Shown in pieces: positions 10,151 to 43,039 of a stretch of 64,000 nucleotides of DNA. Position numbers and translations under genes: made by a program. Below the pieces are notes generated by a model. It saw only the letters and a program-made list of their open reading frames with translations. It had not been told where the DNA came from and did not search any database. Numbering within the stretch: the first letter of the stretch is position 1; each line of letters opens with the position of its first letter. The stretch comes from Vespertiliibacter pulmonis (lineage in GTDB: Bacteria; Pseudomonadota; Gammaproteobacteria; Enterobacterales; Pasteurellaceae), in contig NZ_CP016615.1 in assembly GCF_013377275.1 (NCBI RefSeq), forward strand, positions 1,250,830-1,314,829, read 5' to 3'.

Positions 10151-10990
10151 ATGAAAAAAGTAACTAAATTTAGTCTTGCTATTTTATCTAGTTTAGTTTT
10201 AGCTGCTTGTAGTAGCGGTGGTGGTAGTGGCGATAATCATTCAAATAATGATGCTAAACAAAATACTAAACCAGCGGTAAAACCAGAATCAGCTAAACCA
10301 GCGGTAAAACCAGAATCAGCTAAACCAGCGGTAAAACCAACAAATACAGATAATAAACTTTCTATAAATAAAGAAGGAACTGGTGCCGTTTATATTATTT
10401 CTGATATGGATAATAATTCCAAAGTTACTCATAAAGTTCTTAATAATGCGGACAATCTTAACTTAATTGTAGTTGATGGGAAACCTATTCGTGTTTCATA
10501 TGAAGATATAGGTATTCGTGCAGGTTATTGGGCAAGAGTAAATGGTTCGGCAAGCTGTTGTGGGGTATTTAATAGTGTACGTTTTGGTGTAATTCCAAGT
10601 AATGGACCAGAAGAAAAAGATTATATTTTCTATAATGGTAAAGTTTCAAAAAATGTACCAACATCTGGTACGGCTTCTTACACTGGACAATTTGTTATTA
10701 CAGGTAACGCTAAGCAGTTTGATGATGAAGATTACTTATTTGGAGATGCTAAATTTAAAGCAGACTTTACTAATAAACAGTTAAAAGGTTCGTTAGAAGA
10801 AGCATCTTTGAAGCCAATCGCTGTTGAAGCAAAAATTGATGGTAATGCTTTCTCTGGTAGTGCAAGTTCTGCGGATTTTAGTACTAAAGCTAATGTAGAA
10901 GGTAAATTCTTCGGTGAAAATGCGAAAGAGCTTGGCGGTATTTTTGACGATGGTAAAAATTGGGGCGGTGCATTTGGCGCATCTAAATAA
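10151..10990 (+). CDS. Slam-type surface lipoprotein, TbpB-like barrel (A)
   Basis: Predicted outer-membrane surface lipoprotein of 279 residues. The signal peptide ends in a lipobox LAAC with Cys20, followed by SSGGGSGD, the glycine-rich tether common in Slam-exported lipoproteins. Then comes a linker with 2.7 copies of a nine-residue repeat (KPAVKPESA, about residues 40-63), and a C-terminal domain ending ELGGIFDDGKNWGGAFGASK, the ending seen in TbpB-like beta-barrels. An adjacent Cys pair is at 136-137. The start at 10151 has GGAG ten bases upstream; an ATG at 10139 would put four residues before the signal. The neighbour at 11206 is a paralogue. Ligand is unknown; family members bind transferrin, heme proteins or factor H. 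No slam gene is in the window. Confidence 0.8.
   Translation: MKKVTKFSLAILSSLVLAACSSGGGSGDNHSNNDAKQNTKPAVKPESAKPAVKPESAKPAVKPTNTDNKLSINKEGTGAVYIISDMDNNSKVTHKVLNNADNLNLIVVDGKPIRVSYEDIGIRAGYWARVNGSASCCGVFNSVRFGVIPSNGPEEKDYIFYNGKVSKNVPTSGTASYTGQFVITGNAKQFDDEDYLFGDAKFKADFTNKQLKGSLEEASLKPIAVEAKIDGNAFSGSASSADFSTKANVEGKFFGENAKELGGIFDDGKNWGGAFGASK
10268..10339 (+). repeat. 27-bp tandem repeat, 2.7 copies, in lipoprotein A
   Basis: Two identical 27-base units (10268-10294 and 10295-10321) and an 18-base partial copy encode KPAVKPESA. The length is a multiple of three, so copy-number changes keep the frame. Confidence 0.9.
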
Positions 10991-11006: not shown

Positions 11007-11052
11007 AAGCGGTTATTTTGTAATTATTTTTAGGAAATAGCCGCTTTCTTAC
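11007..11052 (+). terminator. terminator after lipoprotein A
   Basis: AAGCGGTTATTT (11007-11018) pairs with AAATAGCCGCTT (11035-11046), 12 bp with one G-U pair, followed by a broken T tract (TCTTAC). One arm contains an uptake-signal core. Confidence 0.65.
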
Positions 11053-11205
11053 TTTTCATCTCTAACTATTCTTTTATTTCATTATTATTTTCTTAAATAG
11101 ATAGGATTAGTTCATATTGTATTTATAATATGGCTTATGATAGATTTTATGTAAATTATCACTTACACTATGTCCCTATTTTATTTTAATCTCATAGGAG
11201 AAAAT

Positions 11206-12489
11206 ATGATGAAGCCTACCAAATTTTGTTTGACTATTTTAGCTGGATTCGTGATTACTGCTTGTAATAGCGGTGGTTCAGATGATGGTAAATCTGCTAA
11301 AGCAAGAATAGAAACACTGAAAGTAGAAACACCGAAAGTAGAAACACCGAAAGTAGAAATACCGAAAGTGGAAGCCCCGAAAGTAGAAACACCGAAAGTA
11401 GAAACACCGAAAGTGGAAGCACCGAAAGTGGAAGCACCGAAAGTGGAAGCCCCGAAAGTGGAAGCCCCGAAAGTGGAAGCCTCGAAAGTGGAAGCCCCGA
11501 AGGTGGAAGCCCCGAAAGTGGAAGCCCCGAAAGTGGAAGCCCCGAAAGTGGAATCCCCGAAAGTGGAAGCCCCGAAAGTGGAAGCCCCGAAAGTGGAAGC
11601 ACCGAAAGCTGAAATGCCAAAAGTAGAAACACCGAAAGTAGAAGCCCCGAAAGTAGAAACACCGAAAGTGGAAGCACCGAAAGTGGAAGCACCGAAAGTG
11701 GAAGCACCGAAAGTGGAAGCACCGAAAGTAGAAGCTCCGAAAGTAGAAGCTCCGAAAGTGGAAGCACCGAAAGTGGAAGCACCGAAAGTAGAAACACCGA
11801 AAGTGGAAGCACCGAAAGTGGAAGCACCAAAAGTAGAAGAATCTGAATCTCTCAAAATAGAGGATACATCAGTTACTGGGGGAGCATATATTTCGAATGG
11901 CGTTAATTACATCAAAAAAGAGTTAAATAATGCGGATAATATTCATGCAATTATTATTGATGGTAAAACACTATTGGTAAGCGAGGAGAATTCTAATCGG
12001 CTAGGTAATTTTATTAGCTATGGCCCTCAGTCTAATGATTCACGAGTAAGCTCTACGTTAGTTAAAGATGAGGAAGGAAATCATATCTATGCTTATAATG
12101 GCCATCCAACCAAAGAGATGCCAGTTTCTGGTAATGCTGTTTATAAGGGGGAATTCTTTGCAAGAGGTCCATTTGAATTTCAACTAAATCCCGATAGCCG
12201 TGAAACTATGGGAAGTTCAGAGTTTAATGTAGACTTTACGAATAAGCAATTATTGGGTGAACTAAAATCTATAGGGGGAGAGGTTATTCCTTCAATTAAT
12301 GTTAATGCAAAATTAGAAGGTAACCGTTTTATGGGGGACGTTAGCTCAGAATTATTTAAAGAAAATGGTAGAATTGAAGGGCAATTCTACGGGAAAAATG
12401 CTGAAGAGATAGGTGGAATTTTTACTGATGATAAAACATTTATTGGCGTAGTTGGTGCTAAAAAAGAAACATTAGAACCTAATAAGTAA
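11206..12489 (+). CDS. Slam-type surface lipoprotein with (KVEAP)n stalk (B)
   Basis: Predicted surface lipoprotein of 427 residues, paralogous to the gene at 10151. Lipobox ITAC gives Cys20, then NSGGSDDG. Residues about 39-208 are 34 pentapeptide units, mostly KVEAP or KVETP, an alternating charged, Pro-punctuated stalk likely to be extended. The C-terminal barrel-like domain shares LNNADN, VDFTNKQL, EGQFYGKNAEEIGGIF and a GVVGAKK ending with lipoprotein A, but lacks its Cys pair. SD AGGAG (11196-11200) supports ATG 11206 or 11209, not the ATG at 11170. The stalk probably lifts the binding domain above capsule or LPS (inference). Long antisense ORFs across the repeat exist only because the repeat lacks stops. 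Confidence 0.8.
   Translation: MMKPTKFCLTILAGFVITACNSGGSDDGKSAKARIETLKVETPKVETPKVEIPKVEAPKVETPKVETPKVEAPKVEAPKVEAPKVEAPKVEASKVEAPKVEAPKVEAPKVEAPKVESPKVEAPKVEAPKVEAPKAEMPKVETPKVEAPKVETPKVEAPKVEAPKVEAPKVEAPKVEAPKVEAPKVEAPKVEAPKVETPKVEAPKVEAPKVEESESLKIEDTSVTGGAYISNGVNYIKKELNNADNIHAIIIDGKTLLVSEENSNRLGNFISYGPQSNDSRVSSTLVKDEEGNHIYAYNGHPTKEMPVSGNAVYKGEFFARGPFEFQLNPDSRETMGSSEFNVDFTNKQLLGELKSIGGEVIPSINVNAKLEGNRFMGDVSSELFKENGRIEGQFYGKNAEEIGGIFTDDKTFIGVVGAKKETLEPNK
11320..11829 (+). repeat. 15-bp VNTR, 34 units
   Basis: Thirty-four consecutive 15-base units, each encoding KV(E)xP-type pentapeptides; a degenerate 35th (KVEES) ends at 11844. Three codon variants dominate (aaagtggaagccccg, aaagtggaagcaccg, aaagtagaaacaccg) and cluster in blocks, which indicates expansion by duplication of neighbouring units. 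One unit reads KAEMP and one KVEAS. Confidence 0.95.
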
Positions 12490-12502: not shown

Positions 12503-12529
12503 AAAGCACTCTAAATTGAGTGCTTTTTT
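12503..12529 (+). terminator. intrinsic terminator after lipoprotein B
   Basis: AAAGCACTC (12503-12511), loop TAAATT, GAGTGCTTT (12518-12526), then TTT. Confidence 0.85.
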
Positions 12530-12629: not shown

Positions 12630-13300
12630 ATGAAGACGTGGAAAGAGGCGATTGGTGAAGAGAAATCAAAAGCGTATTTTCAGCAAATTTTACAAAAAGT
12701 ACAGAGTGAGAGAGTGGCGGGTAAGGCAATTTATCCTCCACAGAATGAAGTATTTAGTGCTTTTAGTTTAACTGAATTTGCTCAGGTAAAAGTCGTTATT
12801 TTGGGACAAGATCCCTATCATGGTCCTAATCAAGCTCACGGGCTATCTTTTTCAGTTAAACCTCATATTGCCCCCCCCCATCATTGATGAATATGTATAA
12901 AGAGCTAGCGCAAGATGTTGGTTTTCAAATTCCATCACATGGTTATTTGATTGAGTGGGCAAAGCAGGGGGTGCTGATGCTAAATACTGTTTTAACCGTT
13001 GAGCAAGGAAAAGCACATTCTCATGCTCAAATTGGTTGGGAAGTCTTCACCGATAAAGTCATTGAACAGATTAATCAACATCGAAATAATGTGGTTTTCT
13101 TACTTTGGGGCAGCCATGCACAAAAAAAAGGGCAATTTATTGATAGATCTCGGCATTGTGTATTAACTGCGCCACATCCCTCTCCATTATCTGCTCATCG
13201 AGGCTTTTTTGGTTGTAAGCATTTTTCCCAGACGAATAGTTATTTAGTTGAGCATCATTTATCTGAAATTAAGTGGCAACTGCCGATGAGTTATGAATAA
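12630..13300 (+). pseudogene. ung: Uracil-DNA glycosylase, interrupted by one-base deficit in a C9 tract
   Basis: Family-1 uracil-DNA glycosylase that excises uracil from DNA in base-excision repair. The reading frame from ATG 12630 (SD aagga) encodes [18 protein letters not shown], with the catalytic Asp, then runs into nine Cs at 12871-12879 and stops at 12885-12887. The rest, from about 12880 to 13300, is intact in the -1 frame: [20 protein letters not shown] and the [10 protein letters not shown] loop with the catalytic His. Ten Cs would give IAPPPSLMN and a normal 223-residue enzyme. All catalytic motifs are preserved, so this is a single recent indel: phase-variable tract, transcriptional slippage site or homopolymer read error. 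Followed by a bidirectional terminator. Confidence 0.92.
12871..12879 (+). repeat. C9 homopolymer within ung
   Basis: Nine consecutive C residues after GATTG-type context (cctcatattg). The longest C or G run I noticed in the window. Ten would restore the frame. Confidence 0.95.
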
Positions 13301-43011: not shown

Positions 43012-43039
43012 ATTCTACATATATGATAATAATTATCAA
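43012..43039 (-). promoter_or_regulatory. hmuTUV promoter with perfect Fur box
   Basis: On the minus strand -35 TTGATA (43034-43039), 16-base spacer and -10 TAGAAT (43012-43017). The 15-base dyad TGATAAT-A-ATTATCA at 43024-43038 matches all 14 positions of the 7-1-7 Fur consensus and covers the -35 and part of the spacer, the arrangement for iron repression. Confidence 0.85.

Follow-up and report, generated by a model that had tools for sequence, protein, structure and literature searches.

How did a run of near-identical pentapeptides come to lie within a single lipoprotein gene of Vespertiliibacter pulmonis, and what might such a run do for the protein that carries it? The gene (P0001) lies in a 64,000-nucleotide stretch of contig NZ_CP016615.1, here called the window, and its features described below are all on the + strand. 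We consider it probable that P0001 encodes a surface lipoprotein exported by Slam (type XI secretion), in which a TbpB C-lobe-type domain is carried on a long, disordered polyampholyte tether of 34 pentapeptides.

The lipoprotein gene and its array

P0001 (11206-12489; 427 aa) is delimited by an open frame, an AGGAG ribosome-binding site (11196-11200) five bases before the ATG at 11206, and an intrinsic terminator found by terminator scan 3' of the stop (hairpin and T-run, 12503-12526). An alternative start at 11170 was rejected in favor of 11206, given the position of the AGGAG and a product beginning MMKPTKFCLTILAGFVITAC, which is a lipoprotein signal peptide. In translation, the signal peptide MMKPTKFCLTILAGFVITA (11206-11262) is directly followed by Cys20 (11263-11265), the residue predicted to be acylated, and the lipobox ITA/C at residues 17-20 aligns with that of the family, A19 and C20 being invariant in 13 aligned members. 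The linker starts at this cysteine (CNSGGSDDGKSAKA..., 11263-11319, delimited from the sequence and a Tandem Repeats Finder (TRF) start of 11311) and ends in a diverged unit, RIETL (11305-11319). Next come the array (11320-11829), a partial 35th unit KVEES (11830-11844) with the exit from the array (together 11830-11859, by unit count), and a folded domain (11860-12486). No Fur box was found near P0001 or its upstream paralogue, the sole match in the window lying elsewhere, at 43025, and promoter-scan matches near P0001 were overall no commoner than expected by chance.

The array consists of 34 complete 15-bp units in the reading frame, encoding 170 residues, as counted in this one genome; TRF on the 64-kb window reported 11311-11839 with period 15, 35.3 copies, 91% matches, and a score of 729. 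Both analyses bear out the 34-unit in-frame array described in the first-pass annotation. By type, the units are KVEAP (23), KVETP (7), and one each of KVEIP, KVEAS, KVESP, and KAEMP, such that lysine and glutamate are invariant (34/34 each), valine and proline nearly so (33/34 each), and variation concentrates at position 4, which is alanine, threonine, or rarely another residue. Chance origin is excluded, since period-15 identity over 495 bp was 0.91, whereas 20 sequences simulated from a first-order Markov model of the window never exceeded 0.36.

Codon variants had also been said to occur in blocks, indicating ongoing local duplication. The blocks are there, if modest: identical units are adjacent in 11 pairs versus 5.6 expected on shuffling (P about 0.009), a clustering consistent with local duplication, while no higher-order repeat was detected, in that no stretch of at least four units recurs elsewhere within the array. 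Between units, pN/pS was 0.19 over all units and 0.25 over distinct ones, so the KVEAP peptide appears to be under constraint, though this is suggestive only because the copies are related by duplication and homogenized.

The unit appears to be particular to this gene among the genomes surveyed. A three-unit KVEAP pattern had no match elsewhere in 140 Pasteurellaceae genomes, on which ground we rejected an array shared with another Pasteurellaceae protein family, and a literature text search for KVEAP returned eukaryotic or unrelated papers only.

Neighboring features of the window

Immediately upstream lies P0002 (10151-10990, + strand), a standard member of the same lipoprotein family (NF041636, 119.9 bits; PF01298, E 1.8e-26), whose domain is 39% identical to that of P0001. 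Its linker contains the only other TRF arrays in the window, including a 27-bp repeat in 2.7 copies (VKPESAKPA, 10266-10339, + strand, by TRF and translation) that is unrelated to KVEAP. Between the two genes, an inverted repeat read directly in the sequence, AAGCGGTTATTT / AAATAGCCGCTT (11007-11046, + strand), is likely the terminator of P0002; the terminator scan had a loop limit of 8 and therefore left it unscored. This inverted repeat also resembles a degenerate uptake-signal pair. Across the window, the uptake signal ACAAGCGGT occurs 17 times versus 0.4 expected and AAGTGCGGT 0 times, counts that fit the Actinobacillus-type uptake group of Pasteurellaceae.

Downstream of P0001, the reading frame of ung (uracil-DNA glycosylase, 12630-13300) is broken at a run of nine C (12871-12879). 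All 138 other genomes with a match in a 140-genome search have a longer open frame, and the C run at this site is at most five in 29/29 relatives inspected. The interruption may reflect phase variation, which would produce a mutator state, or else genuine loss of the gene or a sequencing error in the homopolymer.

The folded domain

The 209-residue domain, a single handle-barrel lobe of the TbpB C-lobe type with an 8-stranded barrel, was recognized by PF01298 (E 2.4e-24), by FHBP_C (also above its cut-off), and by the NCBIfam equivalog NF041636 slam_lipo, "Slam-dependent surface lipoprotein" (86 bits, cut-off 80). AlphaFold2 modeled it from a 20-row alignment with pLDDT 86.4 and pTM 0.86, and the best Foldseek matches of this model were TbpB structures (E 9e-12). 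Structural alignment with VIA-align gave Z about 22 over 196 residues against the TbpB C-lobe, with NHBA (6cuj) at 17, haemophilin/HphA at 16-17, and fHbp at 14. With the lipobox cysteine on its 5' side and this TbpB-like domain on its 3' side, the array does sit between a lipid anchor and a binding-type domain, as had been proposed from the sequence.

The domain is nonetheless divergent, standing only 6 bits above the NF041636 cut-off, and it has neither the Cys-Cys nor the GxW motif, both kept in the handle by most aligned relatives, P0002 included, such that its recognition as a substrate by Slam is not assured. The absence of these motifs suggests a changed ligand. Transferrin and haem were considered as ligands, and none was assigned because the TbpB-like fold is common to many cargo proteins with different ligands.

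Slam genes and export

Two Slam genes, both intact, occur in the genome (PF04575 at 299 and 258 bits against a cut-off of 22); neither adjoins P0001, the nearest being about 0.7 Mb off. One, at about 559 kb, adjoins a Pls-like lipoprotein of the same superfamily with EKAAA-type repeats. The other, at about 538 kb (537.8-539.2 kb; L046 3762-5219) and about 720 kb from P0001, is an orphan with no lipoprotein neighbor, and of the two it more closely resembles the Slams found beside homologues (mostly 41-51% identity); it likely works for lipoproteins from other loci, P0001 and P0002 perhaps among them. In Rodentibacter, Aggregatibacter, H. parainfluenzae, A. porcinus, and Conservatibacter, homologue and Slam are no more than about 3 kb apart and are often neighbors. 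Distance is no objection for P0001, however, as N. meningitidis TbpB and LbpB are likewise not adjacent to Slam1 (PMC5449769): adjacency is common among cargo of the type XI secretion system (T11SS) but does not define it, and P0001 lacks no defining trait on this account.

Elsewhere in the genome, two further lipoproteins of the superfamily have N-terminal tandem repeats of an Ala/Glu/Lys type (L047 8583-8674, L049 4789-5023). A separate 159-bp tandem repeat (L049 1-426; 2.3-2.7 copies, about 84-88% alike) lies at the edge of the stretch examined, with no lipoprotein linker identifiable around it.

Taken with the lipobox and family models above cut-off, the Slam genes give the predicted surface-lipoprotein architecture of the first-pass annotation a named route, T11SS, and P0001 is predicted to be surface exposed from its membership of a Slam-exported family in a genome with Slam genes. 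Periplasm-spanning proteins, on the other hand, can carry Pro/Lys/Glu-rich spacers, and P0001 might instead sit on the inner leaflet with its K/E/P-rich stretch running TonB-like across the periplasm or peptidoglycan. The repeat-bearing H.8 lipoprotein Laz, which was found not to be surface exposed in N. gonorrhoeae (PMC6277709), speaks for such a periplasmic spacer and warns that a repeat alone does not imply surface exposure. Yet the C-terminal domain falls in a barrel family exported by Slam, and the genome has Slam genes; we regard the periplasmic placement as quite improbable.

Predicted physical state of the tether

The array was expected to form a stalk that would stay extended. This was too strong: in the full-length AlphaFold2 model of P0001, the array has no secondary structure (pLDDT 36-57). 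In composition it is 40% charged with a net charge of zero and 19% proline, and Thr/Ser account for 9/170 residues. From general polymer reasoning, a well-mixed neutral polyampholyte of this kind should behave as a swollen, flexible chain rather than a rod, and simple scaling estimates put its contour length at about 53-60 nm and its root-mean-square span at about 8-11 nm. Charge balance and the unstructured prediction thus point to a flexible leash rather than an extended stalk, and a rigid proline-rich rod or helical stalk was rejected on the AlphaFold2 result together with the proline at every fifth residue.

The same composition bears on whether the array might do the binding itself, e.g., of host polyanions or polycations, or serve as a scaffold for glycosylation, with length setting avidity. 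There is a parallel in NHBA, which binds heparin via a disordered N-terminal arginine-rich region (PMC7857515), but the P0001 array alternates in charge to a net of zero and has few Thr/Ser residues, and the other arrays of the family share no common motif, which together make this very unlikely.

Linkers across relatives

Relatives were found with an alignment query; a single-sequence search with the P0001 domain returned none. The survey set comprised 68 distinct family members with a recognizable lipobox, selected by similarity to the P0001 domain and partly by open-frame length, in which the segment from the cysteine to the domain was measured. In-frame arrays scoring 100 or more in TRF, all with periods that are multiples of 3, were present in 22/68 linkers, a proportion that is no population frequency because the set is non-random, and 46/68 had no strong array. 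Linker length ranged from 12 to 201 aa (median 50), P0001 being the longest of the 68 at 201 aa. The array units are mostly unrelated to one another and include KVEAP, TSDNK, SGTTN, NPQAG, NQPKQD, SKPAEQ, VKPAES, PAQ, PQ, KQDQP, a 35-residue unit, and more. A literature search on tandem-repeat arrays in Slam-dependent lipoproteins of the Pasteurellaceae yielded nothing on the subject, only general Slam papers.

Within orthologue-like groups of the family, copy number moves faster than the domain. For TSDNK, four Rodentibacter species that share 80-94% identity in the domain have about 25, 17, 12, and 3 copies, the contrast of about 25 versus 12 being between homologues with 94% identical domains; for SKPAEQ, copies number about 19 versus 13, with domains 97% identical, in two genomes of a genus including an H. 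parainfluenzae strain. As some of the compared assemblies are drafts, these counts may be mis-sized. Length variation, which the first-pass annotation expected from slippage, is thereby found at the family level, in sister arrays of close relatives.

These comparisons admit two accounts. It is possible, if less likely than not, that Slam-dependent lipoproteins of the Pasteurellaceae have independently and repeatedly built unrelated repeat tethers at one site, with copy number outpacing the domain and length under selection, as a disordered counterpart of periscope proteins of which the KVEAP array would be the longest found. Alternatively, the linker may be little constrained, so that slippage arrays arise and drift with no selected role for length and the 34 copies are a long tail, an explanation we rate as possible rather than probable. 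Such neutral tolerance gains from the extreme heterogeneity of the linkers, from the many without a strong array, and from family members for which a 25-aa linker is evidently enough. Against it, the unit is conserved as protein (pN/pS 0.19-0.25, a test weakened by homogenization of the copies), and charge balance is kept in 46/50 linkers of at least 40 aa, highly charged ones included. Whether tether length is selected across the family or merely tolerated, the data fit both.

Proposed working and significance

Under our preferred reading of P0001 as a tethered, Slam-dependent surface lipoprotein, Sec and Lol would bring the acylated protein to the outer membrane, where one of the two Slam proteins would recognize the C-terminal barrel and move the protein outside. 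The KVEAP chain could then allow the domain to explore the space outside the lipopolysaccharide or capsule layer and so reach a host ligand or a partner receptor. Since the units are 15 bp and in frame, they could be gained or lost without frameshift, and tether length might change quickly while the domain stayed constant. Unrelated repeats at the same spot in relatives make the P0001 array look like an adjustable, floppy leash, whose reach function is putative and whose copy number may also change in this species. There is precedent for a functional role of the linker segment in TbpB, whose complex with TbpA and transferrin forms only if the anchor peptide is nearly intact (PMC4475390).

If exposed, the repeat tether might instead act as an antigenic decoy, diverting antibodies from the domain or varying antigenically. 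Immunodominance would be expected of a charged peptide repeated so often, and the Neisseria H.8 antigen offers an analogy; the array units are nearly uniform, however, so copy-number change would alter little antigenically, and we think a decoy role unlikely.

Slam-exported lipoproteins include the vaccine antigens TbpB, fHbp, and NHBA. Should the tethers of such proteins be variable-number arrays, a fast-changing portion of them may be sized wrongly or missed by short-read assembly and by antigen typing from sequence. Relatives also appear to offer natural variants in tether length whose domains are nearly identical (94-97%), making the role of tether length in capture by surface lipoproteins directly testable.

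Comparison with known systems

The closest described architectures are in a 2025 survey of T11SS cargo, which covers lipoproteins whose N-termini, ahead of a handle and barrel, are disordered, rich in proline, or made of helical repeats, e.g., "disordered N-terminus 1", Pls-like proteins, Psychrobacter PTD repeats, and Sphingomonas PT repeats (PMC12282271). P0001 shares with these, as they appear there, the lipid anchor, a repeat or disordered N-terminal segment, a handle, a C-terminal 8-stranded barrel, and a Slam in the genome, but has a single handle-barrel pair preceded by 170 residues of pentapeptide array, whose KVEAP unit is absent from the portion of the survey's text that was searched. 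The survey describes architectures, and copy-number variation is not a subject of that portion.

TbpB resembles P0001 in fold (Z about 22) and in its lipid-anchored linker, but has two handle-barrel lobes where P0001 has one, and P0001 has no partner receptor gene adjacent and a linker about four times the family median, unlike TbpB. NHBA, a surface lipoprotein, shares with P0001 a disordered N-terminal region and a comparable barrel (6cuj, Z 17), though the disordered part of NHBA has a heparin-binding Arg-rich stretch and the P0001 array is neutral and regular. The Neisseria H.8 lipoproteins Lip and Laz have AAEAP pentapeptide repeats, comparable to P0001 in a pentapeptide ending in EAP shortly after the lipidated cysteine. 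Laz differs in carrying azurin with no Slam-type barrel, and its surface exposure is disputed (PMC6277709). The P/E/V/K-rich PEVK region of titin, a disordered elastic chain, came up in the KVEAP text search and is a compositional look-alike of the array in a eukaryotic muscle protein, with no homology to it.

In periscope proteins (SasG, Rib, Sgo_0707), individually folding repeat domains form rods (PMC8201768, PMC9704523). The P0001 array possibly works in a similar way, with near-identical tandem repeats between anchor and functional domain, such that copy number would change projection distance, but its 5-residue unit is predicted to be unstructured (pLDDT 36-57) and so falls outside the folded repeats of that class. 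Set beside these systems, P0001 is ordinary in kind and long in degree, a long example of a known architecture with a new unit.
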